Positions 26,674 to 55,080 of a DNA stretch of 64,000 bases are shown one piece after another. Within the stretch, counting starts at the first letter, position 1; each line of letters opens with the position of its first letter. The stretch spans positions 332,501 through 396,500 of the forward strand of contig OX463827.1 in assembly GCA_949825045.1 (NCBI GenBank). Reading direction: 5' to 3'. Origin of the DNA: Argyresthia goedartella (Eukaryota; Arthropoda; Insecta; Lepidoptera; Argyresthiidae). The notes beneath the pieces are model-generated. The model saw only the letters and a list, made by a program, of their open reading frames with translations. It did no database searches and was not told where the DNA came from. A program made the translations under genes and the position numbers.

Positions 26674-29601
26674 ATGCATACATTGAAATCTCTCTCTCTC
26701 TCTCTTGGTTCAGGAGGTGTCTCTCTTGGTTCAGGAGGTGTCGACTCCCTTGCGGACGCATCATTGTCTAGCAATCTGAAACGAGTGTTCAACAAGTCGG
26801 AGTTCAATTTCAATGTCGTTCATATTAATGCCCAAAGCATTCCTGCTAGTTACGCTGATCTCCTGGAAGCTTTCAGTGATCAGATTATACATGGTATTTT
26901 TGTATCCGAATCATTTCTGAAACCATCTCTTCCTTCCTCCATGTATTCTCTGCCAGGGTTCAGGCTCTATCGCAACGATAGGACAGGCAAAGCAGATGGC
27001 GGGGTTGCTATCTACTTACGTTCTGACATTCCGTGCAAAGTCATCTGCCACTCGCCAAGCCTGTACTGTGTTTCAGCTGAGTATCTCTTCCTTGAGATCA
27101 GCTTGCACCACAACAAAATTCTTCTGGGTGTATATTACAGCCCCTCACTTCGTATCGATTACTTTGATTCTTTTGAATCTCTACTCAGTGACTTGACTCC
27201 TCTTTATAGTGACACTCTCATTCTCGGTGATTTTAATACCTGTCTCCTGAAAAATAACGCCCGCTCTGCCAAACTTAAATCTATTGTAAATTCCTCTAAC
27301 TTACATATTCTTCCCCTTGACGCTACTCACTTTCAACCGCACTGTTTTCCCTCCCTTCTCGATCTCATGATTATCTCCAACATAGCCAAGGTGGCTGCTC
27401 ATGGCCAGCTTAATGCCCTATTCTCCTATCACGATCTGGTGTATGTTTCATACAAAATTAGGCTCCCTAAGCGCAAAGTCAAATTCCTTGATATTCGAAG
27501 CTTCAAAGGTGTGAACCTCGATTCCCTGAAATCAGATGCCTCATCTGTCGATTGGACCCCCGTTGTAACTGGTGAGACCGTTGATGACAAAATCCTGAAG
27601 TTCAACTCAATTGTCCTGGGGCTGTTCGACAAGCACGCACCAATGAAAAAGGTCAGGGTAAAACATTTTCCTGCTCCGTGGTTGACAGACGCTATCAAGC
27701 GTTTAATGGCAAAAAGAAACCGTGCGAAGGGGCGATATAAGAGAGACCCAACCGATAACAATCTCCTAACATTTAAACGCCTTCGAAACCTATGCAACCG
27801 CATGTGCCGTGACGCCAAGCGACGCCACATCTATGAGCGTATAGAAATGAACACCCCAGCTCAGGTCTGGAAATTTCTTAAAACCCTTGGTGTTGGCAAG
27901 TCCCAGGAATTTTCTTCAGGTGATGTCGATCTCAAGGGTCTTAACCAGTTCTTTTCTTCTCCCCCCCTCGTGATAGAACCCGCCACAAAGCAGGCAACCC
28001 TTCGTCATCTACGGTTGAAGGCTGCAGTCTGTACCTCACCGTTCAACTTTAGTCTCGTTGCAATCGGCGCAGTTAGAAAGGCAGTGCTAGCGGTCACATC
28101 CAAAGCTGCTGGTGGCGACAACGTCAGCCATCAGATGATCCACAGCGTCCTTGAAGAGTTGCTCCCTCCAATTACCCACATCATAAACTTCTCTCTATCA
28201 GCTAGATCTTTTCATAGTCTGTGGAAGAAAGCTCTTGTCATCCCACTGCCCAAAAATTCCAATCCCTCCTCCTTCAAAGATTACAGGCCCATATCTATTT
28301 TACCTATTCTCTCCAAAGTCCTTGAATCCATTGTCCACTCCCAACTCACCTCCTACCTTTCATCAAACAAACTTCTCAATCCTTTCCAATCAGGCTTCAG
28401 ACCAGGGCATAGTACTACCACAGCACTTTTAAAAGTCAGCGATGATATACAGCTAGCCATGGATCAGAGGTTGGTTACGGTGCTGGCCCTGCTTGATTTC
28501 AGCAATGCCTTTAACTGCGTCGATTTTGACATTCTTGTCGCTATATTAACATCGCTGAATGTCTCCTCCCACGCTGCTGGCTGGTTCGACTCATACCTGA
28601 GAGGCCGTCAGCAGCGCATTAAGTCTGAAGAGACCGAAACTCAATGGTGTGATCTTTCCTCAGGAGTGCCTCAAGGTGGTATTCTCTCTCCTCTTCTTTT
28701 TTCAGTCTTTATAAACTCCATCTCCGACGTCCTCTCTTCTTCGTATCATCTGTACGCAGATGATCTACAAATTTATCGCCACTTTTCCCCCTGCGATGTA
28801 GTTTCATCCGTGGAGGCACTGAATGCTGACCTCGAGAATGTGAAAGACTGGGCCTCATCATACGGGCTGTTAATAAACCCGAATAAATCACAAGCCATGA
28901 TTTTAGGAACCAGGCACACTCTTTCCTTGTTACAAAAACCCATTGTTCCCGTATCATATAATGGCATCACAATAGAGTACACAGATAAGGCGAAAAACCT
29001 TGGGGTTATTTTTGACAACCAGCTGTCTTGGTCTCCACATGTCAGCGAGGTCAGCAGACGGGTCTTTGCGTCTTTTCACTCCCTCAGGCGTCTGCAGTAC
29101 TTCTTGCCGCGGCAGACCAAAATCACCCTTGCTCAGTCCCTTCTCCTGCCGCTAATCGACTACGCCGATGTATGTTGGGCGAGCGCGAACGAAGATCTTC
29201 TGAACAAACTCGAACGACTTCAGAATCTCGGGATTCGGTTTATCTTCGGGCTGCGCAAATTTGACCACGTCTCTCAATTTCGCAAAGAGTTGGGGTGGCT
29301 TCCGATTCGTCGTCGCCGAGACTCCCATATTCTTTTTTGTCTTTTCAATATATTGAAAAATCCGCGCTACCCCAGCTACCTTCGAGACCGCTTTGAGTAT
29401 CTCTTTTCAGGAGATCGGCAACGGAGATCTCACACGGTCTCACTCTTAGCCACTCCAAGGCATACCACTTCCGCATATGAGCACTCCTTCAGGTTGCAGG
29501 CGGTCCGACTGTGGAACGCACTTCCTTGTGCGATAAGAGACAGCCCGACTCTTTTCGCTTTCAAAAACCGGGTAAAAGAGCACTTCCTCTCTCTTTTGTG
29601 A
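26674..29601 (+). CDS. LINE endonuclease-reverse transcriptase (ORF2), open
   Basis: The protein nicks target DNA and copies its own RNA there. 975 codons are open with no stop. An APE-type endonuclease occupies about residues 50-260: INAQS near 52, SES near 78, ILGDFN with Asp186, and a terminal YHDLVYVSY where most relatives have SDH. A linker follows. The RT (about 500-770) shows YRPISILP, LLDFSNAF with Asp608, SGVPQGGILSPLLF and the catalytic YADD at 694-697. The C-terminal part carries ASANEDLLNKLERLQN and ends KEHFLSLL. The listed ATG (26674) may lie in flanking DNA upstream of the insertion point, so the native start is uncertain. Catalytic residues are intact, so this copy could make active enzyme if transcribed. 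Confidence 0.88.
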   Translation: MHTLKSLSLSLGSGGVSLGSGGVDSLADASLSSNLKRVFNKSEFNFNVVHINAQSIPASYADLLEAFSDQIIHGIFVSESFLKPSLPSSMYSLPGFRLYRNDRTGKADGGVAIYLRSDIPCKVICHSPSLYCVSAEYLFLEISLHHNKILLGVYYSPSLRIDYFDSFESLLSDLTPLYSDTLILGDFNTCLLKNNARSAKLKSIVNSSNLHILPLDATHFQPHCFPSLLDLMIISNIAKVAAHGQLNALFSYHDLVYVSYKIRLPKRKVKFLDIRSFKGVNLDSLKSDASSVDWTPVVTGETVDDKILKFNSIVLGLFDKHAPMKKVRVKHFPAPWLTDAIKRLMAKRNRAKGRYKRDPTDNNLLTFKRLRNLCNRMCRDAKRRHIYERIEMNTPAQVWKFLKTLGVGKSQEFSSGDVDLKGLNQFFSSPPLVIEPATKQATLRHLRLKAAVCTSPFNFSLVAIGAVRKAVLAVTSKAAGGDNVSHQMIHSVLEELLPPITHIINFSLSARSFHSLWKKALVIPLPKNSNPSSFKDYRPISILPILSKVLESIVHSQLTSYLSSNKLLNPFQSGFRPGHSTTTALLKVSDDIQLAMDQRLVTVLALLDFSNAFNCVDFDILVAILTSLNVSSHAAGWFDSYLRGRQQRIKSEETETQWCDLSSGVPQGGILSPLLFSVFINSISDVLSSSYHLYADDLQIYRHFSPCDVVSSVEALNADLENVKDWASSYGLLINPNKSQAMILGTRHTLSLLQKPIVPVSYNGITIEYTDKAKNLGVIFDNQLSWSPHVSEVSRRVFASFHSLRRLQYFLPRQTKITLAQSLLLPLIDYADVCWASANEDLLNKLERLQNLGIRFIFGLRKFDHVSQFRKELGWLPIRRRRDSHILFCLFNILKNPRYPSYLRDRFEYLFSGDRQRRSHTVSLLATPRHTTSAYEHSFRLQAVRLWNALPCAIRDSPTLFAFKNRVKEHFLSLL

Positions 29602-35110: not shown

Positions 35111-35302
35111 TTATTCTATATTATTATATATACTATATTACTTGTATAACAATTGTCGCATAATAAAACATAATTTAAGTGCATAAAAATCTTTTATTTT
35201 TATTATTCATATGTGTTCAATAAAATCAAATATATGTTTTCTTAACAGTTTAAGTAATAAAACATTTTTTAATGAGTTTGTTACAAAAACTTTATTTGTA
35301 TG

Positions 35303-35515
35303 TGTACAAGCATGCACATCGTTGGTATTCACTGTACTTTTATAACCTAGATAATTATTGTAAATTAAGCATAACACGTAGTTTACCTTTCTAGGCTAAA
35401 GACTAGTCTGAGTTAGTTGCAATAAAGCACTCGGTACAATTACCAGTTAACGTCTTTCCTTCGGAACCTACAACATACATCCTACAACAACACGTTACGA
35501 GCTAAGGCTCGTACA
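35303..35515 (+). repeat. 5' LTR of the young BEL/Pao element
   Basis: Begins TGTACAAGC and ends CTCGTACA. The U3/R boundary is placed at 35376 and R/U5 at about 35457 on the basis of the extra R copy at 41262-41343, which starts and stops at exactly these points. Confidence 0.95.
35341..35457 (+). promoter_or_regulatory. LTR core promoter and poly(A) signal
   Basis: A TATA-like TATAAC starts at 35341, 35 bp before the inferred transcription start ACGTAG (35376). AATAAA is at 35421-35426, about 31 nt before the inferred cleavage site (35457). The start and cleavage sites are inferred from the ends of the R-only copy at 41262-41343; spacing to both signals agrees. Confidence 0.7.
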
Positions 35516-35517
35516 TT

Positions 35518-35530
35518 TGGTCCTTCGAGC
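35518..35530 (+). promoter_or_regulatory. Primer-binding site, tRNA-Tyr
   Basis: TGGTCCTTCGAGC, two bases after the LTR, is complementary to the last 13 nt of an insect tRNA-Tyr (acceptor strand starting CCTTCGA, CCA added). Minus-strand DNA synthesis would start here. Complementarity stops after 13 nt in this copy. Confidence 0.85.
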
Positions 35531-35630
35531 AAAGTTGATTGTGGTTACGGTTATTCCTACTCACTACGGGATAATACGTGATTGGAGTCAGCGTATCGGC
35601 GCCGTTGGAAACACAGGACGTTGTAAAACC

Positions 35631-35935
35631 ACAAACATCCGTCCGGGGGTCAACTTCGGCGGGAACAAACAGCCGTCTGGAGCCAGGAGGCGCCAGCGGG
35701 AACAAACATCCGTCCGGGGGTCAACTTCGGCGGGAACAAACAGCCGTCTGGAGCCAGGAGGCGCCAGCGGGTACAAACATCCGTCCGGGGGTCAACTTCA
35801 GCGGGAACAAACATCCGTCCGGGGGTCAACTTCGGCGGGAACAAACAGCCTTCTGGAGCCAGGAGGCGCCAGCGGGTACAAACATCCGTCTGGAGGTCAT
35901 CTGCGACGGGAACAAACAGCCGTCCGGGGTCAGCA
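35631..35935 (+). repeat. Leader minisatellite, about nine units of 33-37 bp
   Basis: Units start ACAAACATCCGTC or ACAAACAGCCGTC and end GCGGG. Two types alternate: a 34-bp unit containing GGGGGTCAACTTC and a 37-bp unit containing GAGCCAGGAGGCGCCAG. It lies in the untranslated leader between PBS and gag. Open frames across it in both strands are by-products of the repeat. Confidence 0.9.
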
Positions 35936-35960
35936 GACTTGGGCATAACAAAACAACAAA

Positions 35961-38900
35961 ATGGCAGACAAATTGGGAGATGTGCTGAAACAACAGGCGG
36001 TCATCATTGATCAAATCAAGGGCATAGGCGACAATTTCAACAAAGATGGACCATCAAGGAAGAACAAGGAGTACCTGAGGGTCCGTTTGGAGCGGTTACA
36101 ACTAAACTGGGAGCAATTTGAGCTCAATCATTCGCGCCTGATGAGCAAGGAAGATAAAACATCTGAGTACTTCACCGACAACGTCTACGAGAAAGCTAAA
36201 GCGAGCTACCTGTCCATCAAGCAAGCAATTTCGGGATACGAGCAAAGGATGCGTCAACAAGAGGTGCAAGAGCAAGTTCAGGATTACAACACCGACCCCA
36301 AGGCTACACAATCAGCTACATCATCGGCTTCACATTCCGGAACAAAGGTGTTGGAGCTTCTGGGCGAGCAACGATCAAACATCAAAGCTTTAGAACGAAC
36401 CATAAGAAATGTGAACATCGACTATATCTCGGAAAAATGGCAGTTAGAAGACAAACTGAAGACTATATCAACTCGCTGGCAAACTTTCGACAATATGTAC
36501 TGGAAGCTGGATAACCTGCTTGATGACACAACAGAGTACGAAATGGAGTATAATAGGCTGGAAAAGTTATTCGACGAGGCAAAATCGCTCATCAACGGAA
36601 AAATGGGATATATTCAACATAGGGAACAATCGACACCGAAAATAGAAATCCCGACATTCGACGGGAATTACTCCAAATGGACTACATTCAAAGATTTGTT
36701 CACGGAGACTGTGCACAACAACAAAAACATATCGCCGGCCCAGAAAATGCAACATTTAAAAACAAAACTTAAGGGGGAAGCAGAACGCCTGGTACAGCAT
36801 TTACACGTTAGCGCCAACAACTATAAAGACTGTTGGGAAATATTGGAACATCGTTACGACAATCTTCGTCTCCTCTTCGGATACTATGCGAACTTATTGC
36901 TCAACCAACCTAACATACAACAAGCAACCGCGACCCAGGTGAAAAGACTACACGACACGACGTTGGAGAACATCAATGCTATTGCAAACTTAAACATTGA
37001 TACTAGCGGATGGGAACCATTGGTGGTGCATATCCTTCAACAAAAACTGGATCCCGAGACCCTGCAGTCGTATATCGAATCGCTAGAATCACCTCGGGAA
37101 CTGCCAAAACTCGATAGCTTTTTGGGCTACCTCGAACACAAATTCATCTCATTGGAGTCCAGCAACAGTAAAGCTCCAGGGAACAACTACAACAACAAGG
37201 AACAGAACAAGAATTCGTCAAACAACAACCCTCCCTTTTTCAAGTCGGTTAATAAAAAGGGGGCAGCCAGTTCAACGTTCAAACCACGAACCTATTATAC
37301 AGCAAAGAGAACGTGCCCGCGCTGTAATGGAGAACATGGATTATACGCGTGCCAAGAGTTTTTGCACCTTGAACCTTTGGCTAAATTACGAGAAGTTGAA
37401 AAACTGAGAGTATGCAGCAACTGCCTGTTTGGACACAACGGGGATATTTGCAGATCAAACAAAAAATGTAAAGAGTGCAATGGGTCGCACAGCACATTGC
37501 TGCACGAGGCAATATCTAGGCCAAGCAAGTCAGCAAGCCAGCAAGTGAACCGGCACAGCACGCACGTATCGAGTACGGAAACAAACGAAGTACTGTTGGC
37601 CACAGCAAAACTTATGGTGCAAGCCAACGACGGAACTTATGTAACGCTGAGAGCTTTACTCGACCAAGGTTCTCAGATAACAATGATAACAGAGGACGCT
37701 GTGCAACGGCTACAACTCAAGAGGATCAAAAACAATGCTGATGTAACTGGGTTGGGAACAACACCCAACAAATGCAAGGGAGAAATCCATCTCGATTGCA
37801 AAGCTCTACACAACGACTACAACTTCGTCATGGGTGCCTTAATTATGAGGCGACTGACCAACAAGCTGCCTAACAGATCGTTCGATGTGGACTCTTGGAA
37901 GCATTTACAACATTTGAAGTTGGCGGACCCAGAGTTCAACATAACAGGAGAGATCGATATTTTATTGGGCGCTGATATTTATCCGGAATTGATAATGGAA
38001 GGCCTGATTAAAACAAACAATCAAGCAATTATTGCGCAACAAACACGGTTGGGATGGGTGATATGCGGAAAATTCTCCCAAAGGACTTTCAACTGTCATG
38101 TCACCATCAACAATATGGAAGATATCAGCAATTTTTGGGAACAGGAGGAGATAGCAAGCAACCAAGTTGAAACTAGCTCGGAAGACTTCTGCGAAAAAAT
38201 GTATGCGGAAACAACAGAGCGACTTCTTGACGGACGATACCAGATTCGCCTCCCGATGAAGAAGGACTTCAAGAACAAGCTGGGACTATCAAAACCACAA
38301 GCTATTGCACAGTATAAACAATTAGTGCGCAAGCTTAACAAAAACAAAGAATTTTCCCAACGCTACAATGACTTCATGGCCGAATATGAACAATTGGGTC
38401 ATATGGAGATATCAAATAAACAAGAACAGCTTCAATATTATCTACCGCACCACGGAATCTTGAGAATGGAAGCGGTCACAACAAAGCTAAGAGTAGTATT
38501 TAACGCCTCGGCAAAAACAACAAGCGGATTCAGTCTCAATGACTTGATGGAAACAGGACCTAATCTTCAAGCGGACCTTCAAGGACTATTACTACAGTGG
38601 CGACAGTACAAATACGTCTACTCAGCAGATATTGAGAAGATGTACAGATTCATCGTCGTACATCCGGAAGATAGGCCACTCCAGAAAATAATTTGGCAGG
38701 ATTCATCAAAGAAAATGAGAGAATTCGAATTGAAAACAATAACATACGGGACTAAGGCCGCGCCTTACTTAGCCCAGAAAACGTTGAAGCAGCTCGCCTC
38801 GGACGAAGGCGATAAGCTTCCTCAAGCAAAAAGCGTCCTTCAGAACAACTTCTACATGGACGATGCACTCTTCGGAAAACATACAACAGAACAAGCAAGG

Positions 38901-41267
38901 TTAACAAGAGACCAGCTCATAACGCTCCTCAACAAAGGCGGGTTCAACCTCCGGAAATGGTCAAGCAATGACCCATCTTTAGTTGCCGATCTACCCGAAG
39001 AGATGAGAAACCCCCGAAACTTCAACTTCAGCGAAAAGGAAACATCAAAAACACTTGGGTTGGGATGGAACCCGAAGAACGATCAATTTATGTTCACATC
39101 AACATTAGAACAAACAACAAACTATGTCAAAACAAAAAGGCATATGTTAAGTGACGTCGCTAAGCTATTTGACCCACTTGGCTGGCTGTCGCCAGTTACG
39201 ATTAAAGCAAAAATCATGTTTCAACAAGTATGGCTGTCTAAGATTTCCTGGGACGACGAATTGCCGGAGGATATCCAAAAGGAGTGGACAACTATAAGGA
39301 AGGATCTTCAAAACATACAACATTTTACAATACCGAGATGGTTGGGGATTGAAGAAACAAACTGCAACATCGAATTACATGCATTTTGCGATGCGTCAGA
39401 AAAAGCATACGCCTGCGTCGTTTACTCGAAGGTTACGTTGTCTACCGGCGATGAGAAAATAACACTTGTCGCAGCGAAAACTAAAGTAGCGCCCATAAAT
39501 AAACAAATAACGCTACCAAGATTGGAGTTGGGTGGTGCATTATTACTAGCCCGACTGGTGGACAAAATAAAACACAGATTTGCTGAAAATCACAACATGA
39601 AGATAATTGCATGGACGGACTCAATGGTCGTGCTGGGATGGCTGCAAGGAGATGAACATCGCTGGAAACCCTATGTGGGAAACCGGGTTCAGGAGATCAA
39701 GAGTGTCGTCCCGGCTCAACAATGGAAACACGTGAAATCAAAGCAAAATCCAGCGGACTGTGCTTCCAGAGGACTCCTTCCGTCACAACTGCGGGGGTTC
39801 AACCTTTGGTGGGAAGGGCCTCATTGGCTTCGAAACAACGACGCAACACAAATGGCTACGGAACCTTCAAGTTATTCAACAAACGAAGAAATAAAGATTC
39901 AAGCTTATCCAGCACAACAAACAGAAATGGGGGTCATCGCCAGCGTCATCGAAAAATGCAGTTCATTGTCAAGGGCTACGCGCATACTAGCGTGGGTGTC
40001 ACGTTTCATAACAACGGCACGCGACCCGGCGACAAGGGGCAACTCCAAACACCTATCGTTGCAGGAAATACGACGCGCGCTACAGCGAATAGTAAAACAA
40101 GAACAAAATACGTATTTTAAATCCGAAATTAAAGATTTAAAATCAAAGGGAACTGTCAGATCCAACAGTAACATTATCAAGCTGAATCCTATCTTGGATG
40201 AAGAGGAGAACCTACGTGTCGGAGGCAGGCTGAAGAACTCAGAGTTGGGGTACACGACAAAACATCCAATAATTCTGCCATCAAACAGCAGACTGACACA
40301 GTTATTAATCGAACAAGCTCATCAACAAACATTACACGGAGGTTCCCGGCTCACGTTAAATTACCTGAGACAGCGTTATTGGATCATCAGCGGCAACAAA
40401 ACAGTAAAACAAAGATTGAGACTATGCGTGCCGTGTACAAGATTCAAACCGCAAAAACAAAACCAGAGGATGGGAGACTTACCAAAAGCCAGAATAACAC
40501 CATCGAGACCGTTTTACAACTGCGGCGTGGACTTCGCAGGCCCAGTAGATGTCAAGGCCAATAAAGGAAGAGGAGTCCGAACATCCAAGGGCTACATCGC
40601 CGTGTTTATCTGCATGGCAACAAAGGCCATTCATCTGGAACTGGTCTCGGATCTGAGCACCCAAGCCTTTATTTTGGCATTGAAAAGGGTGGTCAGTAGA
40701 AGGGGTCTGATAAAAAACATATGGAGTGACAACGGAACAAACCTCCTGGGAAGCAGCAGAGAACTTAAGAAACAGTTCAAGGAACAATCAACATTTAATG
40801 AAGACTTCGTGAACAAGACAAATGAGTTGGAAATCCAGTGGCATTTCATCGCACCGGCCTGGCCAACTGCGGGCGGGTTGTGGGAATCCGCTGTCAAATC
40901 CATGAAGTATCACCTGAAAAGAGTGATAGGGGAGCAAAAACTCACATATGAAGAGTTTTACAGCCTTCTAACATGCATAGAAGCTTGTCTCAACTCGAGG
41001 CCGCTGCTACAGCTGACCGAAGACACAGAGGATCGGGAATTTGTCCTAACTCCGGGTCACTTCTTAATCGGCGAACCTCTATTAGCAATACCAGAAGAAG
41101 ATCTGAAAGGCGAAGTCAGTCTGCGAAATCGGTGGAAGTTAACCACGAAGATGTACCAGGACTTCTGGAAGAAATGGTCATCAGACTATCTACAACACTT
41201 ACAAACGAGGAGTAAGTGGAACAACAAAACAGAAAACTCGAAAATCCGGCTCGAAGGACCAACGTAG
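35961..41267 (+). CDS. BEL/Pao Gag-Pol polyprotein, open, integrase tail replaced
   Basis: One frame of 1768 codons starts at ATG in CAAAATGG. Domains in order: Gag DUF1759-like (about 220-400, with IPTFDGNYSKW); Cys-rich knuckles (about 451-515, CPRCNGEHGLYAC and later pairs); and an aspartic protease with LLDQGSQ at about 565-571 (Gln where Ser is common). RT follows with VFNASAKT, YSADIEKM and the catalytic YMDD at 965-968, then RNase H (FCDASE, Asp1144; WTDS). The H2C2 finger is HQQTLHGG...CVPC. The integrase triad is Asp1524 (VDFAGP), Asp1590 (SDNGTN) and Glu1642 (GGLWES). The DUF5641-type C-terminus starts normally (LTPGHFLIG) but ends after KWNNKTENSK, where the frame runs into the tRNA-like sequence. 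It lacks about 70 residues compared with the element at 42217. Confidence 0.93.
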   Translation: MADKLGDVLKQQAVIIDQIKGIGDNFNKDGPSRKNKEYLRVRLERLQLNWEQFELNHSRLMSKEDKTSEYFTDNVYEKAKASYLSIKQAISGYEQRMRQQEVQEQVQDYNTDPKATQSATSSASHSGTKVLELLGEQRSNIKALERTIRNVNIDYISEKWQLEDKLKTISTRWQTFDNMYWKLDNLLDDTTEYEMEYNRLEKLFDEAKSLINGKMGYIQHREQSTPKIEIPTFDGNYSKWTTFKDLFTETVHNNKNISPAQKMQHLKTKLKGEAERLVQHLHVSANNYKDCWEILEHRYDNLRLLFGYYANLLLNQPNIQQATATQVKRLHDTTLENINAIANLNIDTSGWEPLVVHILQQKLDPETLQSYIESLESPRELPKLDSFLGYLEHKFISLESSNSKAPGNNYNNKEQNKNSSNNNPPFFKSVNKKGAASSTFKPRTYYTAKRTCPRCNGEHGLYACQEFLHLEPLAKLREVEKLRVCSNCLFGHNGDICRSNKKCKECNGSHSTLLHEAISRPSKSASQQVNRHSTHVSSTETNEVLLATAKLMVQANDGTYVTLRALLDQGSQITMITEDAVQRLQLKRIKNNADVTGLGTTPNKCKGEIHLDCKALHNDYNFVMGALIMRRLTNKLPNRSFDVDSWKHLQHLKLADPEFNITGEIDILLGADIYPELIMEGLIKTNNQAIIAQQTRLGWVICGKFSQRTFNCHVTINNMEDISNFWEQEEIASNQVETSSEDFCEKMYAETTERLLDGRYQIRLPMKKDFKNKLGLSKPQAIAQYKQLVRKLNKNKEFSQRYNDFMAEYEQLGHMEISNKQEQLQYYLPHHGILRMEAVTTKLRVVFNASAKTTSGFSLNDLMETGPNLQADLQGLLLQWRQYKYVYSADIEKMYRFIVVHPEDRPLQKIIWQDSSKKMREFELKTITYGTKAAPYLAQKTLKQLASDEGDKLPQAKSVLQNNFYMDDALFGKHTTEQARLTRDQLITLLNKGGFNLRKWSSNDPSLVADLPEEMRNPRNFNFSEKETSKTLGLGWNPKNDQFMFTSTLEQTTNYVKTKRHMLSDVAKLFDPLGWLSPVTIKAKIMFQQVWLSKISWDDELPEDIQKEWTTIRKDLQNIQHFTIPRWLGIEETNCNIELHAFCDASEKAYACVVYSKVTLSTGDEKITLVAAKTKVAPINKQITLPRLELGGALLLARLVDKIKHRFAENHNMKIIAWTDSMVVLGWLQGDEHRWKPYVGNRVQEIKSVVPAQQWKHVKSKQNPADCASRGLLPSQLRGFNLWWEGPHWLRNNDATQMATEPSSYSTNEEIKIQAYPAQQTEMGVIASVIEKCSSLSRATRILAWVSRFITTARDPATRGNSKHLSLQEIRRALQRIVKQEQNTYFKSEIKDLKSKGTVRSNSNIIKLNPILDEEENLRVGGRLKNSELGYTTKHPIILPSNSRLTQLLIEQAHQQTLHGGSRLTLNYLRQRYWIISGNKTVKQRLRLCVPCTRFKPQKQNQRMGDLPKARITPSRPFYNCGVDFAGPVDVKANKGRGVRTSKGYIAVFICMATKAIHLELVSDLSTQAFILALKRVVSRRGLIKNIWSDNGTNLLGSSRELKKQFKEQSTFNEDFVNKTNELEIQWHFIAPAWPTAGGLWESAVKSMKYHLKRVIGEQKLTYEEFYSLLTCIEACLNSRPLLQLTEDTEDREFVLTPGHFLIGEPLLAIPEEDLKGEVSLRNRWKLTTKMYQDFWKKWSSDYLQHLQTRSKWNNKTENSKIRLEGPT

Positions 41268-41343
41268 TTTACCTTTCTAGGCTAAAGACTAGTCTGAGTT
41301 AGTTGCAATAAAGCACTCGGTACAATTACCAGTTAACGTCTTT
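41242..41343 (+). other. tRNA-Tyr 3' end joined to an extra R segment
   Basis: 41242-41261 reads AAATCCGGCTCGAAGGACCA, which corresponds to the T-loop-to-CCA end of insect tRNA-Tyr. The CCA is not genomically encoded, so the source was mature tRNA. 41249-41261 is the exact reverse complement of this element's own PBS, and the match to the tRNA continues seven bases beyond it. Directly after, 41262-41343 is an 82-nt copy of 35376-35457, the LTR part between inferred transcription start and poly(A) site. The gag-pol frame reads through the tRNA part and stops five bases after it. Confidence 0.85.
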
Positions 41344-41367
41344 TCCCTGTTGGTTGATTTGGCAGCA

Positions 41368-41580
41368 TGTACAAGCATGCACATCGTTGGTATTCACTGT
41401 ACTTTTATAACCTAGATAATTATTGTAAATTAAGCATAACACGTAGTTTACCTTTCTAGGCTAAAGACTAGTCTGAGTTAGTTGCAATAAAGCACTCGGT
41501 ACAATTACCAGTTAACGTCTTTCCTTCGGAACCTACAACATACATCCTACAACAACACGTTACGAGCTAAGGCTCGTACA
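41368..41580 (+). repeat. 3' LTR of the young BEL/Pao element
   Basis: Identical to the 5' LTR over 213 bp. The 24 nt before it (41344-41367) hold no purine-rich tract, unlike a normal plus-strand priming site. Confidence 0.95.
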
Positions 41581-42216
41581 GTATGAGTTAAATCTGGCTA
41601 CCCATTTTTGATAGAGCTAGACCTTGAATCTGTGAGTTATAAAGTATCTCTTCTACCTTAAATCAGTCTTAAAAATATCAAACTCACAACATTTAAAATT
41701 TAACTACTAACTATTACCTTCAATTACTCAAAACTCACAACATTTAAAATTTAACTACTAACTATTACCTTAAATTAGTCTAATATTACATAATCACAGT
41801 GATATTTGGTTTCTTGGTTTCCATAATTTTCTTTATCATCATTAAATATAACTTATTAAAGCCTCTGGTTAAAATTACTCGTATTAACCGTGCCGTCAAA
41901 CTATCTGCAATTCTTTGATGAATTCTTGATTACATTTTTTTTGTATTTATTTTTCTCTTCTAAATTTTTATTCCGAGAAATCTCTGCGTCTAACGATTGT
42001 TGCATTCTCTTTGATGCAACATTCCTTTGTTCTTTTTTGTAAGAATTTTCGGCTTATTAACCAGTAATCCGCAAGGTGCGTCGTCAATAAGCTAAGAAAT
42101 TAGAGTTTTATATAAGCCGAGTTTAGAGTTTTCGGAGCTTCTGTTGATTCGAAAAATTCTTGTGGGGGAGGTAATATCCCTTCATCTGTTACTTCTAAAA
42201 AATAAAGAACACTATT

Positions 42217-43296: not shown

Positions 43297-45120
43297 ATGT
43301 CGTTATCTGAAATCCAGAAGGGTGTTTCTAAGGAACTCAGATGGTTTTCCTCCGCACACGGTCTGATAGACCGTTTAGATAGGCATGATGTGGTATTGGA
43401 GCGGTCTATGGACGTTAAGGAACGTTACAATAGGGTGCTCGAATTGTCCGCGCAGGCGGAATCAGTTGATGGTTGTGCACCTGACAGGCTATCACGGTTG
43501 ATAGGGGATGTCGACCAATGTATGGAGATGGCAGCTGCTATCACGCAGAAGGCTGCGGACATACGTAGACAGCGCGAGTCCAGCCATGATGGTGACATTG
43601 AAGCACCTCTGCCGCATCAGGGATCGGGGTCCAGGTTACCTGCCATAACTATGCCTACTTTTGACGGCGTGTCCGGTGAATGGATGAGCTTCATCAATCT
43701 GTTCGACAGTTTGGTGCACTTGCGATCGGACATTACCAAGTCTGTCATGATGGCTCAGCTGGTGGCAGCATTGAGGGGTGAGCCTAGGGAGCTGGTCGCT
43801 CATTTGACAGTTACGGAGGGTAACTATGAGACGGCCAGGCAATTGTTGGTCAGACGTTACAACAACAAACGGAGGTTGGCCGATGCCCAACTGAACCGTT
43901 TGTTCAGCATCCCGGTTGTGAACAAGGTCGGGGCCATACAGACGGAGGTTTTGAACCCATTGTTGTCCGTCACCAAGGCTCTAGAGAATCTTGGACTTCC
44001 GGTTGGTGAATGATCGTACCTACTGTTGTACATTGTACTTTCCCGCCTACCCGCTGACGTGCAGACTCGTTTCGAACAGTCTCACGGGAGGTCGGCCGAG
44101 GACCTGCCCGCCTTCTCCGACTTGGTCGGATTTTTGGAACAGGAGGCTCGACGGGCAGAGAATTTGGGGTTGACGGTCACCCATCCTTCGGAGCCACAGA
44201 GAGCTGCCGGGAGCGCTGTGAGTAGGGGCCCTCCGACGAGGAAGGACCGCACCAACCGGCAGTCGTATGGGACTGTGAGTGAATTGACCCCACATGGTGA
44301 GACCTGCCCATGTTGTAGGCAGATTGGCCATGCTGTGGCCAATTGCAATAAGTTCGGGGAACTTAGGGTTCAGGGACGGCGCCGGATGGCCAAGCAGCGG
44401 AGCTGATGTTTCCTGTGCCTCGGGCCACACATGGCTAGGGACTGCACACGCACACAAATGTGCGGATATTGTGGTGGGCCCCACAACAATCTGTTGTGCA
44501 TGAACCAGTCCGGCCAACAGCCACCACAGGGCCGTACCCAGGGTGACACGGCATGGGGCCCTGAGAATTCGTTTGCAACTCGGAGCGCAACTCAGGGGCC
44601 AACGTCCCCACGTGCACAGGGCAGTACTAGGGTGCAGGGCCGCACTCAGGGTCATCACATGGGGGGCCCTGAGTTTTCGGTTGCGACTCAGCATCCGACT
44701 CAGCGGGCAATGGGGCCACAAGCACGCGGCCACCCAGGGGTGCAGGGCCGCACTCAGGGTCATCACATGGGGAGCCCTGAGTTTTCGGTTGCGACTCAGC
44801 ATCCGACTCAGCGGGACATTGGGTGTGTTGAGCAGGCCGTAACAGGCGGGTGGCATGGGACACCTTCGAGCTATGCGGGTGCGGTTCGGACGCCGCCTCA
44901 GTTGTCGCCCCGCTCGTCGCCTCGTCCTCGTCGGTCAGATGTGATGTCCCCCCCGCTCATGGAGCGGCTACGGTTGAATTCACGCCCACCCCCCTTTACG
45001 GGGAATCGTAGGGTGGCAATGGAACCGGCGCGTGGGCCATTTGTACAATGGGACCCTCTGGCGTATAGCTGCATACCTGATCGGTTACAGGCAGAGTGGG
45101 GCCCCGGGGGCCCTCGCTAG
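43297..45120 (+). pseudogene. BEL/Pao gag, two breaks
   Basis: Three consecutive pieces: 43297-44013 (MSLSEIQKGV...; DUF1759-like core with MPTFDGVSGEWMSF), a frameshift, 44026-44406 (SRLPADVQTRFEQ; knuckle CPCCRQIGHAVANC), a TGA, and 44431-45120 (CFLCLGPHMARDC and CGYCGG knuckles). The last piece includes a Gly/Gln/His-rich stretch repeated in tandem. The stop at 44404 is what deamination of a CGA codon would give; the terminal TAG at 45118 may be another transition. The wild-type product forms the particle that packages RNA. Confidence 0.85.
44627..44830 (+). repeat. Tandem duplication of about 114 bp within gag
   Basis: GTGCAGGGCCGCACTCAGGG followed by TCATCACATGGGG and GCGACTCAGCATCCGACTCA occurs at about 44630 and again at about 44744, giving a repeated QGRTQGHHMG.PEFSVATQ peptide. 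It lies in the low-complexity tail behind the zinc knuckles. Confidence 0.85.
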
Positions 45121-48100
45121 GAATTTGCGGCCCAACCATTTGTTGCCCCCCAACCGGAGACGGTGGTGTTACCGATCGCCTCTGTGCTTGTTTGGGATTT
45201 GGCGGGCAACTCAACATACGTTCGCGCCCTATTAGATTCTGGAGCTCAGGGCTGCATTGTATCGAATGATTTAGCAAAATGGTTGGGCCTCAAGGTAAAT
45301 AGGTATAATAAATCGATACGAGGCGTGGGGTATGTTACGGTTACGAATGTAGTTGGTCAATCGGTGATCACGTTCTCTCCACGTTATGACATTTTGACAA
45401 AAACATCCGTGCAAGCTTTAGTAATGACGCATGTCATGGGCAGTCACCCCTTGGTGAAGTTGAATCCGGCCGTGCGATTCCGTTGGCGGATCCCGATTTT
45501 GACACTCCAGCCCCGGTCGACCTGCTCCTGGGAGCAGACGTTCTGGGTAGGTTTCTGTTGTCGGATCGGCGAGTTCTTCAGTCGGACGGGTTGATTGCTG
45601 TGGATACTATGTTTGGTCACGTGATCATGGGTCCGGCATTGCCAATGGTTAGGCCTGCCGAGTCAGATGGCATACTTATTGGCTCAGCGTTGTCAGACGC
45701 TATCCAACGTTTCTGGGAGATAGAGGAACCTCCCACCGTTCGTCAGAATCGACGCAGACGAAGAAGAGTGCGAGTTGTTTTACCAGAATAGTACTGGTCG
45801 CCTTCGTTCTGGTCGTTTTGTAACTCGACTGCCTTTTAGGGCCAATCGACCGCCACTAGGAGAATCTAGGAAGATGGCTGAGACGAGATTGATGTCGATG
45901 GAGCGTAGGATGTAAAGGGGCGCCGTATTTAAACAAAAATACGTCGATTTCATGAGGGAGTATGAGTCGTTAGGACACATGTCGGTATCGGGTGTGGACT
46001 GGAGATCTGAGGATCATTGTTTCCTTCCACACCATGCCGTCCTGCGAACCCCTACCGGCAAGATTCGAGTTGTTTTTGATGGGTCAGCACCTACCTCGAA
46101 CGGGATGTCCCTGAATCAGTGTCTACATTCGGGACCCAAGTTGAGTCGTGATATTTCGGATATTCTCACGAGCTTTCGGAGACACCAGATTGTATTTGTC
46201 GCAGACATTCGGATGATGTTTCGGCAAACGGTAATTCATCCGGCTGACAGAAGGTATCAGTTGATACTTTGGCGTGAGTCCATGGCCGAGCCAGTCAAGG
46301 TCTATGAGTTAAACACGAACACGTATGGGTTACGGTCTAGCCCGTATTTGGCGATGCGTACCCTGCGGGAGTTGGCGTCGCGTGACCGTGTGAGCTATCC
46401 TAGAGCCACCGCTATCCTGGAGCAAGATTTGTACGTCGATGACGTCTGCACAGGGGCAGCCAGTGTAGAGGAAGCTCTGGACCGACGTGACGAGCTCATT
46501 CAATTGCTGGAACAAGGCGGCTTTGAACTACGCAAGTGAATGTCCAACTCCCCTGAGTTGATGGCTGGTCTCCCAGATGAGTTTCAACAAGACCCGCACG
46601 TTTTTGAGAATCCTGACAACCCTAACATGTTGTCAGTGCTTGGAATTCAGTACCGGCCCGTCCATGATGAGATTACCTATCGGGTGGTTTTAGAAACACC
46701 GAAGGCCTGGACGAAGCGGTCAGTACTGTCAACGATTGCGAGAACGTTCGACCCGAATGGATGGATTTCTCCAGTCACCTTTGCTCTCAAATGTTTTATG
46801 CAAAGGCTATGGGCGGCTCAGTTGACCTGGGACACCCACCTCTCAGGTGATTTGTTGACTGATTGGACGTGAATGTTCACCTCGCTATCGGACATAAATA
46901 ATGTATCGCTGCCGAGGAAATTTGTCCCTGCTGGGGATTACAGGGCAACCCTTCACGGGTTTTGTGATGCCTCTGAACGAGGGTTTGCGGCAGCGGTTTA
47001 TTTGCGAACCGTCACCTCCACCGGGGAGGTCGACGTGCGTTTGGTTTTGGCAAAAAGCAAGGTAGCGCCTATTCGGACAAGGACGACGATTCCAAAACTG
47101 GAACTGTCCGGGGCTGCTCTTTTGACCAAACTTTTGAATCACACTCTAACAGTGTTGCGTGGGTCAGTGGTTTTGGAGGATACGGTGTACGCTTGGACGG
47201 ACAGCCAGATTGTTTTGTGCTGGCTGAAGGCTTCGGTCCATAACTTAGAGGTTTTTGTTGCGAACCGTGTCTCCCAGATTGTGTCGTCTGAGGTCCCACT
47301 GACCTGGAGACATGTACCAGGAGAATTGAACCCGTCTGATTGTGCATCCAGGGGATGTCGGGCTCCTGAACTCGTTAGACACCATTTGTGGTGGGGACCA
47401 CCCTGGCTTGCCAAGAGAGAATCGGACTGGCCCCACAGCCATCTAGTAGTATCTTCGGATCATGGCCCCAGAGCGGCCTTGCATGTTACCCAGAAGGCTG
47501 AGGACCCTGACGCCGGGTTTCTGCTGGACCGGTACAGCTCACTTGACAAGTTGATAAACGTGTCCACTTGGATTAGGAGATTCGCTCGAAATTGTCGTAC
47601 TCCTCGCGATCAGCGAACGTTGAACCCTATTCTGACTCCGGCAGAGCGAAACGAGTCGCTGTTGAATTTGGTCCGGTTGGTACAGTCCTCGAAGTTTGGG
47701 GCAGAATTGGAGATTATACGAAGTGGACGTTCGAAATTGAAGGGAGCCGTCGCGCGTCTCAACCCCTTTGTTGATTCGATCGGGTTACTTCGGGTAGGAG
47801 GAAGATTGCGCAATGCGAATCTGTCGTATTCGGCTCGTCACCCACTTCTGCTTCCCAAGGGGGGACACTTAGTTGAATTGCTGGTGACTGATCGTCATAT
47901 TAAAAACGCGCATGCCGGCTGTAACTCGTTGTTGGCCACGCTCCAGCGGGAGTTTTGGATCTTATCTGCCCGCCGTGTCATACGGAACGTCGTGTTTCGG
48001 TGCATGCCTTGTTATCGACTTAAGGCTGCCACAATGCAACCTCTCATGAGGGACTTGCCCCCTGATCGTGTGAATGAGGTCAGACCGCTTTCAGGTGTTG

Positions 48101-48996
48101 GTACGGATTTTGCAGGACCGTTTATGGTGAAGAGTTCACGATTGCGTACCGCTAAGCAATACAAGGCGTACCTATGTGTGTTTGTTTGTTTATCCACCAA
48201 GGCGGTACATCTCGAGCTCGTTGCTGATCTCTCGACAGAGGCTTTCATTGCTTTTTTGGATAGGTTTGTTTCTCGAAGGGGACTTCCAACTTTGATCCGC
48301 TCTGATAACGGCACTAACTACATCGGTGCGGAACGATACTTACGAGAGATAGTCAACTTTTTGAATGTAAATAAAGTGGATATTGGAACGGCCCTCTCCC
48401 GTCGGGGTATACAGTGGACCTTCAGACCACCGATTTGCCCCCACTGGGGTGGGATTTTTGAAGCCGTAATTAAGTCAGCTAAGACGCACTTAGGGCGTAT
48501 AGTAGGTCAGACCGCGCTGACTTTTGAGGAGCTCGCGACATTGTTTTGTAAGATCGAGGCCGTTCTCAATTCGCGACCGTTGTGTCCGCTCAGCTCGGAT
48601 CCAAATGACCTGGAGGCTCTGACCCCAGGCCATTTCTTGATAGGACAGTCACTTAATGCGTTGCCCGAGCACCCCTTCGAGGGAGTGAAATTGTGTCGGT
48701 TGTCAAGGTATCAGATGTTGCAGCAGTTTACTCAGAATTTCTGGAAGCGTTGGTCGCTCGAGTATCTGCATATCTTACAACAGCGCCTTAAGTGGACTGA
48801 CAAAACTAGCCCCCCTAGTGTTGGTGACCTCGTTCTGGTTAAGGATGCTAACCTACCGCCACTACGTTGGCGCAGGGGGCGCATTGTTAACTTGTTCCCT
48901 GGCAAGGACGGGACCCCCCGGTCTGCAGAGGTTCTAGTAGGAGGCTCGGTTCTAAAACGAGCGGTAGCAACGTTGTCTCGGCTGCCCGTAGATTAG
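45121..48996 (+). pseudogene. BEL/Pao pol, several nonsense codons and shifts
   Basis: The protease piece 45163-45594 (RALLDSGAQGC) shifts to 45483-45791 (VDLLLGADVLG; FWEIEE). After two breaks, RT 45952-46539 has VFDGSAPT, VADIRMMF and the catalytic YVDD (about 46434). TGA at 46537 and TGA at 46870 stand where Trp is expected. The piece 46873-48996 (707 codons) holds RNase H (GFCDASE; TDSQIVLCWL), the H2C2 finger (HIKNAHAG...CMPC), integrase (VGTDFAGP, SDNGTNYIG, GGIFEAVIKS) and an intact DUF5641 tail ending AVATLSRLPVD. The breaks are few and mostly point changes, so it was active not long ago. Confidence 0.9.
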
Positions 48997-51599: not shown

Positions 51600-54500
51600 T
51601 GAATCGTTGTTGTTCTGTGGACGTTAGACATATTGTATCACCTTCCATATTGTTATCGCCGGTCACTGAGAATATTTATATATATTTATATGACATTACA
51701 GCCAAAAATTTGGCTTCTAACTCTGCTTTTACTGAGCAGCCTAATATGAATCTGGTATCAGACCAGAATAACAGGATGCATTTAAATTAGTTCATAGGAC
51801 AACAGAGGACCCAGGCTCTGGCAACATATGTTCTAGTATATTAGAAAACCCTAAGAATAAGGGAAGCTCACATGCTAAGTATATAAGCCTGGTTCATCAG
51901 AATATTCAATGTATTAGAGGCAAACATCTACAAATAGAGTTATTTTTAAATTGTAACAAAATTGACATTTTGTGCATAACAGAGCACTGGTTAACTATTA
52001 ACGAAATTATGTTTAGCTTTAAAGATCACCAGGTTGGTAGTTCGTTCACCAGACTTAATTCAATACATGGTGGGGCATTAATCATACTAAACAATCATAT
52101 GAAATTCAAGGAACGTAAGGACATTGTTTCCTTATCTGTTGAACGAACTATAGAACTTGCAGCTGTGGAATTAGAACAGTTCATCGTTATATGTGTCTAT
52201 AGGCCACCCTTGAGCGACTTTGAAATGTTCGAGAAAATAATGGAATCCGTCCTAACTATTTCATCACACAGTACGAAACGATTAATTATATGTGGTGACT
52301 TTAATGTTAATCTGTTAGAAAGAACTACTCTCAGCGTTAGATTGATAAATCTTTTCTCATCATTTAGGCTTAGCCATTTATTTATGGAGCCAACAAGAGT
52401 GACTGCTACTAATGCTACATGCATTGACAAAATTTTTACTGATGTTATTCCAATCAGTAAAAGTGTTATCAGTGAATTGGATTCAGATCATTTAGGTCAA
52501 TTATTTCAATTTGATTCTATTAGAGAACCTGTCATTAAAAAGAAAATTTCGTTTGTGCCAATAACTGCTGACCGGTTAGAAAGAATGAGATACTCTTTAG
52601 CCCAGGAACTACCGTTTTTGGCTGCTGAAAAGTCTCCTAATATAATGTATAACTTATTCTTTGAAACCTATATGAAACAGTACAGCGCGATATTCACTTC
52701 AAAATCGGTTGTGGTTAGTGGTTTAAACGACTTTAGTACGTGGGCTACTGCAGAGTTGCATAAACGCAGGCAAGCATTGTATGCATTGTATGAGGAACGA
52801 CGGTTCAACATGAGTGACGAATTTAAAGAACAAGTCAAACAGTTCTCCAAACAATTTAAATTAGACTGTCATACAGCTAAACGTAATTTTCTGAGTAGTA
52901 AAATTAAGAATAGTTCCGATGTTATAAAAACGACTTGGAAAATAATTAATGAGGAGGCCGGTCGTAGTAAAAAAGCGAGTCACGATTACGAACTAAAAAT
53001 CAATGGACAGCTTACGAGTTCTAGCTTAGAAGTTGCAGCTGAATTTGAATCGTTTTTTACTAATGCACCGGCTTCCACGACTAAGTATTTAAATTCGTCA
53101 CCTTTGTCTGCTGTTGCAATATTAAAAGATAATGTCTCAGAGTGTGCTTCATACTTGAATTTTAAGCACGTCACAAGTTCAGATGTCGTAAAGGCATTTA
53201 AATTAATAAATGTTAAGAAAACGAATGATCTTTAGGGACTCTCTGTTCACGTCGTTAAATCCCTGATCGAATTAATTGTACCTGACCTAGCGGTCATTTT
53301 CAACAATTGTATAGACTGCGGTGAATTTCCTGATTTAATGAAACAAAGTAAGATAATTCCCCTCTTCAAAGCAGGTAGTACTCAAGACCCCACCAATTTC
53401 AGACCTATATCAATACTACCAACTTTTAGTAAAATTTTTGAGAAATTAATCTTATCACAGCTATTACATCATTTTGAATCAAATAAGCTAATGCATAACA
53501 AACAGTTTGGATTCACTCGCGGTCGTTCAACAACAGATGCCGGAATTCAGTTCATTGAAAGTATTTTTGATGCCTGGGAAGAGTCACAAGATGCCCTAGG
53601 CATTTTTTGTGACTTATCTAAGGCTTTTGATTGCGTTTGTCATGAAACATTGATCAGGAAATTACATCATTATGGAGTTAGAGACACGTCATTGAATTTC
53701 TTAAAATCTTATCTGAACGGAAGAATACAAAGGGTAGACGTAAACGGAGAACGATCACCAGGATCATTGGTTTCTTTGGGCGTGCCACAGGGCTCAATAT
53801 TGGGACCCTTCCTATTCCTCATCTATATAAACGACTTACCCTATCTAGGAAGGGACTGTCATGATATGGTACTGTTTGCTGATGACACCTCACTTATTTT
53901 TAAAACAAAGCGAAACCAACACGCTAATGATGATCACGTGAACAATAACATATCAAGAGTGGTAAATTGGTTTAATGTTAATAATTTGCTATTAAATGAG
54001 AAAAAGACTAAATGTGTTAAGTTTCTTACTACTAACGTTAAAAATAATCAGACATGTATAACAATTAAAAATGTGGAATTGGAATTGGTAACCAGCACAG
54101 TGTTTCTAGGTATAACGTTGGATTCCAAACTCCAATGGGGTCCACATATTGATAAGCTATCGAACAGACTGAGCTCTGCAGCTTTTGCATGCAGGAAAAT
54201 CCGTCACTTGACAGATTTAAAAACAGCCAGATTAGTTTATTTTAGTTATTTTCATAGTATTATGTCCTACGGTATTCTGCTCTGGGGCAGTGCTGCTGAC
54301 ATAAATACTATTTTTGTACTGCAGAAGCGGGCTGTTCGTGCGATTTATAAAATGAATAATAGCGATTCTCTTAGAAATAAGTTTAAAGAAGTAAATATAT
54401 TGACAGTCCATAGTCAATATATTTACGAGAATATTATGTATGTCCATAAGAACATTGTTAACTTTCGAAGAAACTGTGATATACATAACTTTAATACTAG

Positions 54501-55080
54501 AAACAAGGACAAACTTGCAGTGCCCACTACTCGGCTCCATAAAATAAAAAACTCGTTCAAGGGTAATTGTGTAAGATTTTACAATAAACTCCCAAGCACT
54601 TTGACAGATCTATCAATTAATAAGTTCAAGAAATACATCAAGCAAAGGCTTATTTCTAAAGCTTACTACAGTATTAAAGAGTACATAGACGATAAAAATG
54701 CTTGGGACTGAATTGTTCTAATTAATTGTGAGCATCCTCACTGCCAGAGTTTCTTTTACTGGACACTTGGAGGCCTTTTACACCTCCAAAGATTAATTTA
54801 ATTATACAACTCTTGACTGTGGGGACCATTTACATCTCCTATCATCATTGTATTATTCACTAAAGAGACTATACATCTCTGTTATTTATATTTTAATTAT
54901 TTTATTATGACATTTGAGACTCTTTACATCTCTCAGAAACAATAATTAAGTACTTTTTTTTTCTGATAATATGATACAAATACCAAATGTTCTGTAAAAA
55001 ATTAAATGAAATGACATGTGAAAGTGCCCTTGTGGCCTATTTACAGAATAAACGTTTTGAGTTTTGAGTTTTGAGTTTTG
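51600..55080 (+). mobile_element. Jockey/CR1-like LINE, almost intact
   Basis: The 5' limit is uncertain (somewhere near 51600, in the end of ORF1: ITAKNLASNS at 51700). The 3' UTR (54712-55050) has several ACATCTC blocks and ends in a (TTTTGAG)n tail at 55057-55078. Its 3' end is nearly identical to the short insert at 13858-14246. It is the last insertion in the right arm of the Harbinger element, about 100 bp from its right TIR. Confidence 0.88.
51791..54711 (+). pseudogene. LINE ORF2 (endonuclease-RT) with one nonsense codon
   Basis: Two long open pieces, to 53235 and from 53236 to 54711, are in the same frame and separated only by TAG at 53233-53235, where the relatives have Trp. The endonuclease shows NIQCIRGK, ITEHW, VYRPPL, ICGDFNVN and ELDSDHLGQL. 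The RT shows FRPISILP, FGFTRGRSTTD, FCDLSKAFDCV, LGVPQGSILGPFLF and the catalytic FADD at about 53875. The C-terminus ends YYSIKEYIDDKNAWD. A single G-to-A change therefore separates it from a full-length ORF2. The frame overlaps the ORF1 stop region near 51790 in a different frame. Confidence 0.9.

Follow-up and report, generated by a model that had tools for sequence, protein, structure and literature searches.

Reverse transcriptases (RTs) that, on reaching the 5' end of one template, continue at the 3' end of a second are known mainly from R2-type elements, which lack long terminal repeats (LTRs), and from group II introns. In LTR elements, a run-off at the 5' end of the R region starts minus-strand strong-stop transfer. 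Transfer RNAs have also been met in retroviral DNA. Reported cases are tRNA-Asp (63 nt) or tRNA-Glu (65 nt) sequence that replaced an experimentally inserted hairpin during replication of human immunodeficiency virus 1 (HIV-1) (PMC12220202), a tRNA-Gly in circular DNA of murine leukaemia virus (MLV) (Colicelli and Goff, 1986) and a tRNA beside an HIV provirus (PMC12220202). Here we describe an insert in a BEL/Pao-type LTR retrotransposon of Argyresthia goedartella (Lepidoptera), contained in a stretch of 64,000 nucleotides (contig OX463827.1, positions 332,501 to 396,500; "the window"), in which the 3' end of a mature tRNA-Tyr is joined to the start of R and bridges an internal deletion. The insert is probably the record of one aberrant minus-strand synthesis with tRNA-bridged template switching.

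Like the HIV-1 insertion (HITME-like), the window has a tRNA sequence in place of a deleted element stretch after reverse transcription, but in this natural germline copy the sequence is 20 nt long, comes from the tRNA that primes the element itself and adjoins the start of R. A 3' part of the tRNA in sense orientation and with CCA lies at the deletion site. In the HITME-like model the sequence at which copying had stalled directly adjoins CCA, whereas in the window CCA adjoins the start of R and the joint with the 3' untranslated region (UTR) is R|UTR. That model also has a strong-hairpin stall before the switch; a short hairpin predicted just beyond the 3' UTR junction of the window is weak and was evaluated without a shuffled control. 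With the MLV and HIV cases the insert shares the copying of a mature tRNA, CCA included, into viral DNA or next to it, but in those cases the tRNA lies where the two LTRs of a circle meet or flanks an outer LTR end and was explained by primer use or self-priming, whereas that of the window is internal and joined to R. The proposed jump, from a 5' template end to the 3' end of a different template, resembles that of non-LTR and group II intron RTs, except that the enzyme would be the RT of an LTR element, and it differs from normal strong-stop transfer in that the acceptor would be the tRNA end and not the 3' R. The event is real, single and recent and is well explained as tRNA-bridged template switching, an already known accident that appears here in a new form.

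The bridge consists of TCGA, then AAATCCGGCTCGAAGGACCA, and then the first 82 nt of R. A preliminary description of the window had reported an exact 82-nt repeat and 20 nt at 41242-41261, 13 of them complementary to the primer-binding site (PBS), and all of these were found as described; the interruption of the pol frame before the tRNA copy likewise stands, except that native pol ends at 41237 and not at 41241. At the joint between tRNA and R (CCA|R) there are 0 nt of overlap and 0 added bases. When this joint (21 nt, up to 3 mismatches) was searched in the whole assembly (1.109 Gb in 89 contigs), 26 matches were obtained, of which only that in the window was exact while the other 25 all carried 3 mismatches, and the reversed pattern used as a control gave 7. 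Of 191 places that match the 24-nt string formed by TCGA and the 20 nt with 3 mismatches or fewer, one is exact. From these searches it is evident that CCA is joined exactly to R, as had been proposed, and that this joint is found once in the genome.

The tRNA side of the joint is exact, and the start of R is, judging from sequence, a putative RNA 5' end. Between the first T of TATAA (LTR position 39) and the left edge of the R copy (LTR position 74) the distance is 35 nt, slightly more than is typical for a TATA-directed start. The right edge of the copy (LTR position 155) lies 31 nt after AATAAA (LTR position 119), but TTT at 41341-41343 is common to the R copy and the native 3' UTR, so that the border is ambiguous by 3 nt; because this overlap sets the right edge, it was not taken as the end of R. 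The earlier suggestion that the copy defines the boundaries of R therefore holds at most for the 5' boundary. The 24 nt ahead of the 3' LTR are native 3' UTR, to which 39 other scored family ends correspond from 41341 onward. No family end with poly(A) directly after it turned up when such ends were searched for (0 matches), a result that does not locate a poly(A) site and does not speak against one, and Rfam searches with the 24-nt insert and with 41100-41700 yielded nothing useful.

In order to identify the source of the 20 nt, tRNA-Tyr genes were located. GGTTCRAATCCGGCTCGAAGGA was matched exactly at 12 places in the genome, 5 of which are full tRNA-Tyr genes with an intron of 16-17 nt (L101, L104, L105, L107, L108); ARAGORN assigned four of them to Tyr, whereas for L104 it placed the intron differently and gave Asn. 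All five genes end in GGTTCAAATCCGGCTCGAAGGA followed by bases other than CCA, and all have TTCAAAT as T loop. The reading covered these five genes, and other tRNA-Tyr-like places carry GGTTCGAAGGA. The 20 nt are identical to positions 57-76 of tRNA-Tyr, including CCA, which is added post-transcriptionally; because none of the five genes encodes it, the source was a mature tRNA, in agreement with what the preliminary description had proposed. The PBS comprises 13 nt in the window and in three other copies read (L037, L039, L056), and therefore AAATCCG, which extends beyond it, cannot derive from such a PBS. Because the five genes share the 3' end and the exact joint occurs once, a chance origin of the insert is not a serious option.

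Among 202 candidate 3' ends of the family 40 were scored, and the whole 3'-end query was matched by the window alone (1/40), the other 39 matching only from 41341 onward. Within the reach of this search the structure is a single event, as had been supposed, and its interpretation as a lineage trait was rejected, given one scored end out of 40 and one exact joint. The site of the pol end was fetched for all 39, of which 35 continue GAAAAC|CTTGCAG (exceptions: L037, L039, L042 and L056), and where the window reads GAAAAC|TCGA|AAATCC, all seven aligned normal copies (7/7) read GAAAAC|CTTGCAG. In one normal copy the continuation completes DUF5641 (9.2e-23) and, without a change of frame, leads on into a Baculo_F-like envelope protein, the start of which scores 1.5e-06 (L031) and the remainder 3.6e-33 (L002). 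In the normal copy on C31 the two edges are separated by 2,261 nt. An envelope gene (env) after the integrase is thus absent from the window copy and present in its family, and the window copy is an internal deletion derivative that lacks the integrase tail and env, the insert bridging the deletion. In the normal copies L031 and L002, env is in frame with gag-pol and RTKR precedes GFFNGVGQ. Three other deletions in the family (L006, L019, L056) have joints without filler, at which exactly 7, 3 and 5 nt are shared as judged by eye (BLAST overlaps of 12 and 13 nt at L006 and L056 include mismatches, the exact shared stretches being shorter), and for this reason the filler in the window is unusual. 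The fourth rearranged copy, L042, runs into sequence that matches nothing in the element. In L056 (G000:C20:21790979-21793079) an inverted stretch of gag and leader directly adjoins a 5' LTR, perhaps as a result of nested elements.

The features of the element and of its insert are collected in Table 1, together with the loci of longer tRNA-Tyr copies considered below.

Table 1. Coordinates of the element, its insert and related tRNA-Tyr copies (window positions unless loci are given).
Feature	Position	Strand	Remark
Target-site duplication (TSD) GTATG, left	35298..35302	.	
5' LTR, 213 bp, TG...CA	35303..35515	+	213/213 vs 3' LTR
R segment duplicated in insert	35376..35457	+	starts at LTR position 74
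PBS TGGTCCTTCGAGC, 13 nt	35518..35530	+	complement of tRNA-Tyr 64-76
gag-pol open reading frame (ORF), 1768 codons	35961..41267	+	native portion to 41237, remainder insert
TCGA, 4 nt between pol and tRNA copy	41238..41241	+	
tRNA-Tyr 3' end copy AAATCCGGCTCGAAGGACCA, 20 nt	41242..41261	+ (sense)	positions 57-76 with CCA
82-nt copy of LTR R start	41262..41343	+	equals 35376-35457 exactly
Native 3' UTR	41341..41367	+	common to other 39 scored copies
3' LTR	41368..41580	+	
TSD GTATG, right	41581..41585	.	
tRNA-Tyr 39-76 copies with CCA	loci L100, L102, L103, L111, L112-L150		

Read as a minus strand, that is from right to left, the order would be U3, 27 nt of 3' UTR, R from LTR position 155 to 74, tRNA from position 76 to about 58, and pol from 41237. 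RT would have copied U3 and the last 27 nt of the 3' UTR and left its template at TTTT, a junction that is observed and for which this direction of travel is the presumed one. With the help of 3-nt homology it may then have resumed in the 5' R of genomic RNA and copied leftward to the cap, where the sharp edge at LTR position 74 suggests a run-off. From there the enzyme would have jumped end-to-end to the free CCA end of tRNA-Tyr, the element's own primer, and copied it to about a presumably methylated A58, which accounts for 18 nt plus 2 A matching A58 and A57. Together with the 4 nt TCGA, it would finally have returned to pol at 41237 and finished the strand, after which the DNA would have been completed and integrated normally, as the identical LTRs and the 5-bp TSD suggest. 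The preliminary description had envisaged a prematurely polyadenylated R transcript as a possible donor; such a donor was discarded as unnecessary, because the R copy ends on its right side at the TTT microhomology with the 3' UTR, which permits a switch in mid-template, and ordinary genomic RNA suffices. The same description had placed the stop of the tRNA copy at about A58, and the left edge indeed falls within the A-run there. For copying of the HIV-1 primer, the main stop lies before 1-methyladenosine 58 (m1A58) and minor stops lie at 55, 54 and 37 (PMC13191261), and the tRNA edge in the window appears to agree with such stops. That tRNA-Tyr does get copied by LTR elements in this genome is seen from 40 distinct longer copies, one of them (L136) beside the LTR end of the window's family.

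Several points weigh against this path. The structure is a single copy whose junction is known from the assembly alone, and the transcript start at LTR position 74 is a putative one. TCGA at the pol side is not accounted for by the proposed steps, and the match to A58 and A57 needs either 2 nt beyond the expected stop or two chance A, so that the two A beyond position 59 may possibly be due to chance or to untemplated addition. Whether the tRNA served as template or as primer is not readable from the final DNA. L092 (G000:C1:28268435), which has the same LTR end as the window's family, carries an 18-nt PBS. Furthermore, two PBS-like sites, L151 (C16:35492711) and L152 (C19:9935410), differ from the 24-nt string solely at position 58; they share TCGAA with the insert, of which about 2 matches would be expected by chance among 1,900 sites, and the sequence that follows them is not R. 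As a separate observation, the leader of L092 differs from that of the window's family.

Instead of a whole tRNA, RT might have used a 3' tRNA fragment (tRF), either tRF-3a of 17-19 nt or tRF-3b of 22 nt (sizes from PMC7472051), in which case the left edge would reflect a second run-off at an RNA end and not a modification stop. The copied 18-20 nt are close to the tRF-3a range, and the 3' end of tRNA-Tyr is listed as a small RNA of 18 or 20 nt, miR-2779, in a beetle and two thrips; for the thrips, bmo-miR-2779 of Bombyx is cited as homologue. However, an m1A58 stop on the whole tRNA yields the same edge and the whole tRNA is the normal primer, and a fragment is considered an unlikely template. 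If the insert is instead read as TCGAATCC plus 2 extra A, a fragment of 22 nt results. This version is weakened, the five tRNA-Tyr genes having TTCAAAT and not TTCGAAT and the lone place with G57 (C17:8296121) showing no tRNA gene, although L151 and L152 read TTCGAA, G or T at 58, and ATCC, where about 0.5 occurrences of TTCGAA would be expected among some 1,900 sites; TTCGAA at these two sites may reflect either chance or a shared error at that spot. Apart from the choice of template, insect miR-2779, AUCCGGCUCGAAGGACCA (20-nt form AUAUCCGGCUCGAAGGACCA), has the sequence of the 3' end of tRNA-Tyr with CCA, with U at position 58 in the 20-nt form.

The order tRNA-CCA-R would also result if tRNA-Tyr, which the PBS shows to be the normal primer, had acted as such, with the 3' end of minus-strand strong-stop DNA as template for the extension of its CCA into a tRNA-R plus strand that was later joined to the 3' UTR and copied back into the tRNA. 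This course is improbable: the 3' end of the tRNA (CCA) does not evidently resemble the U3 bases that precede R (AAC), so that an end-to-end alignment would be needed here likewise, plus one extra switch. At the DNA level, a piece might have come from the PBS of another tRNA-Tyr-primed element by DNA repair or template switching. Potential donors are plentiful, with 932 + 965 PBS-like sites at up to 1 mismatch (control: 3), and of 29 distinct sites that were read, 27 contain the 18-nt match ATCCGGCTCGAAGGACCA, with differing sequence after it; those on C16 and C19 even equal the 24-nt string save at position 58. Nevertheless, a PBS adjoins the LTR end and not R, the C16 and C19 sites continue otherwise, cuts precisely at CCA and at the start of R would be a coincidence, and the 24-nt string and the joint each occur exactly once, which leaves this origin very improbable. 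Ligation of a tRNA to decapped element RNA before copying would produce the same exact end-to-end joint but requires decapping and an unusual ligation besides two template switches, and can hardly be credited. Equally little weight is given to an assembly or sequencing artefact: the junction is read from the assembly, but the exact joint was found nowhere else in it to be misjoined, and TSD and LTRs are intact. The probable explanation is tRNA-bridged switching during minus-strand synthesis.

An unexpected comparison came from a genome search for positions 39-76 of tRNA-Tyr with CCA at up to 3 mismatches, which gave 77 places (control: 0), 5 of them the genes, which mismatch in CCA. Forty-three places were read (29/29 with 0-1 mismatch, 13/35 with 2 and 1/13 with 3). 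Those left out were, at 2 mismatches, two genes and 20 of a 22-member series on small contigs sharing GAGGGACCA, and, at 3 mismatches, three genes and nine others (position 58 by listing: A 4, G 3, T 2). The 43 comprise 40 copies with distinct upstream sequence, most of them next to apparent LTR ends. Position 58 differs from the gene in 31/40 (T in 20, G in 10, C in 1; A is kept in 9), and any other position differs in at most 3/40. The copies start at A38 in 24/40, at 39 in 6/40 and further left in 10/40; a match to A38 is expected by chance in one quarter, and copies ending to the right of 39 are invisible to the search. In 35/40 a TG is present no more than 9 nt beyond CCA (about 0.4 by chance, own estimate), as a short spacer and a putative LTR end would lead one to expect. 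L114 and L128, as well as L130 and L135, have the same downstream sequence, but the members of each pair differ upstream and in the base at 58, which speaks for separate events. In L136 (G000:C30:15443221-15443358) the LTR end of the window's family (60/60 nt) is accompanied by a tRNA-Tyr copy that reaches to about position 29, reads C at 58 and is joined to the leader at about window position 35602, the intervening stretch missing. A tRNA end that adjoins the start of R was found in the window only.

Taken together, the genome is probably an archive of RT copying its own modified primer tRNA, in which fossils of misincorporation at m1A58 and of a stop at modified G37 after over-copying are kept, the window being the only detected case in which the tRNA would have been reached by an end-to-end jump from an RNA 5' end. 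The modifications at 58 and at 37 (a G in the gene) are candidates deduced from the copies. This set of tRNA-Tyr fossils is the more novel part compared with the insert in the window; in the open-access literature searched, nothing was found on genomic fossils of tRNA modification or on a tRNA-R joint in an LTR element. With position-58 changes so concentrated, such copies would allow tRNA modification and primer-copying errors to be read from assemblies alone. The insert for its part is a natural germline case in which the RT of an LTR element seems to have joined the end of the mature primer tRNA to a putative RNA start, suggesting that this class of RT can cross between two RNA ends without homology. 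It offers a testable cap site for the family (LTR position 74) and illustrates a way in which a single copying round can turn an element with env into derivatives without it. As observations on the tRNA copies themselves, L123, L124, L148 and L149 and a series on C44, C60, C64, C70, C77, C79 and C88 represent a single tRNA copy that recurs many times, for the most part on small contigs. In the four named loci it is preceded by CCAGCGACC, which is tRNA GGTCGCTGG in reverse complement and looks as though the strand had snapped back.

The host element, at 35303-41580, is a young BEL/Pao-type copy. Its two LTRs are identical, and the 3' LTRs of 30 fetched family copies, the window copy among them, are identical across 213 bp. 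Profile matches in the window ORF were Peptidase_A17 (4.4e-53), DUF1759 (7.9e-36), Integrase_H2C2 (3.3e-10), RVT_1 (6e-06, under the curated cut-off of that profile) and DUF5641 (3.3e-09, truncated at position 39 of 94). The Pao-type peptidase, the DUF1759 gag and the DUF5641 integrase end place it in BEL/Pao, as do the TG...CA LTRs of 213 bp and the 5-bp TSD GTATG, TSDs of this group being 4-6 bp. The PBS is of tRNA-Tyr type, a trait not required of BEL/Pao generally, as in the published BEL-Pao family Achilles (PMC4580426). Beyond the native pol end the ORF continues for 9 sense codons and a stop, which ends at 41267. Among the best 120 of 7,955 scored candidates, the relatives of the pol end are arthropod proteins, many with a Baculo_F domain; the best E-values belong to a pseudoscorpion (45-47% identity), identities reach 67%, and moths such as Plutella come after the top identities.

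ARAGORN called no tRNA in the window. By eye, the leader at 35640-35940 contains repeated units around CATCCGTCCGGGGGTCAACTTCGGCGGGAACAAAC. Also by eye, ORFs at 43297-48996 resemble those of another BEL/Pao element, one whose integrase end (VGDLVLVKDANLPP) is intact, and ORFs at 3623-4459, 20107-20727, 26674-29601 and 51970-54711 resemble mariner-type transposases and non-LTR reverse transcriptases.

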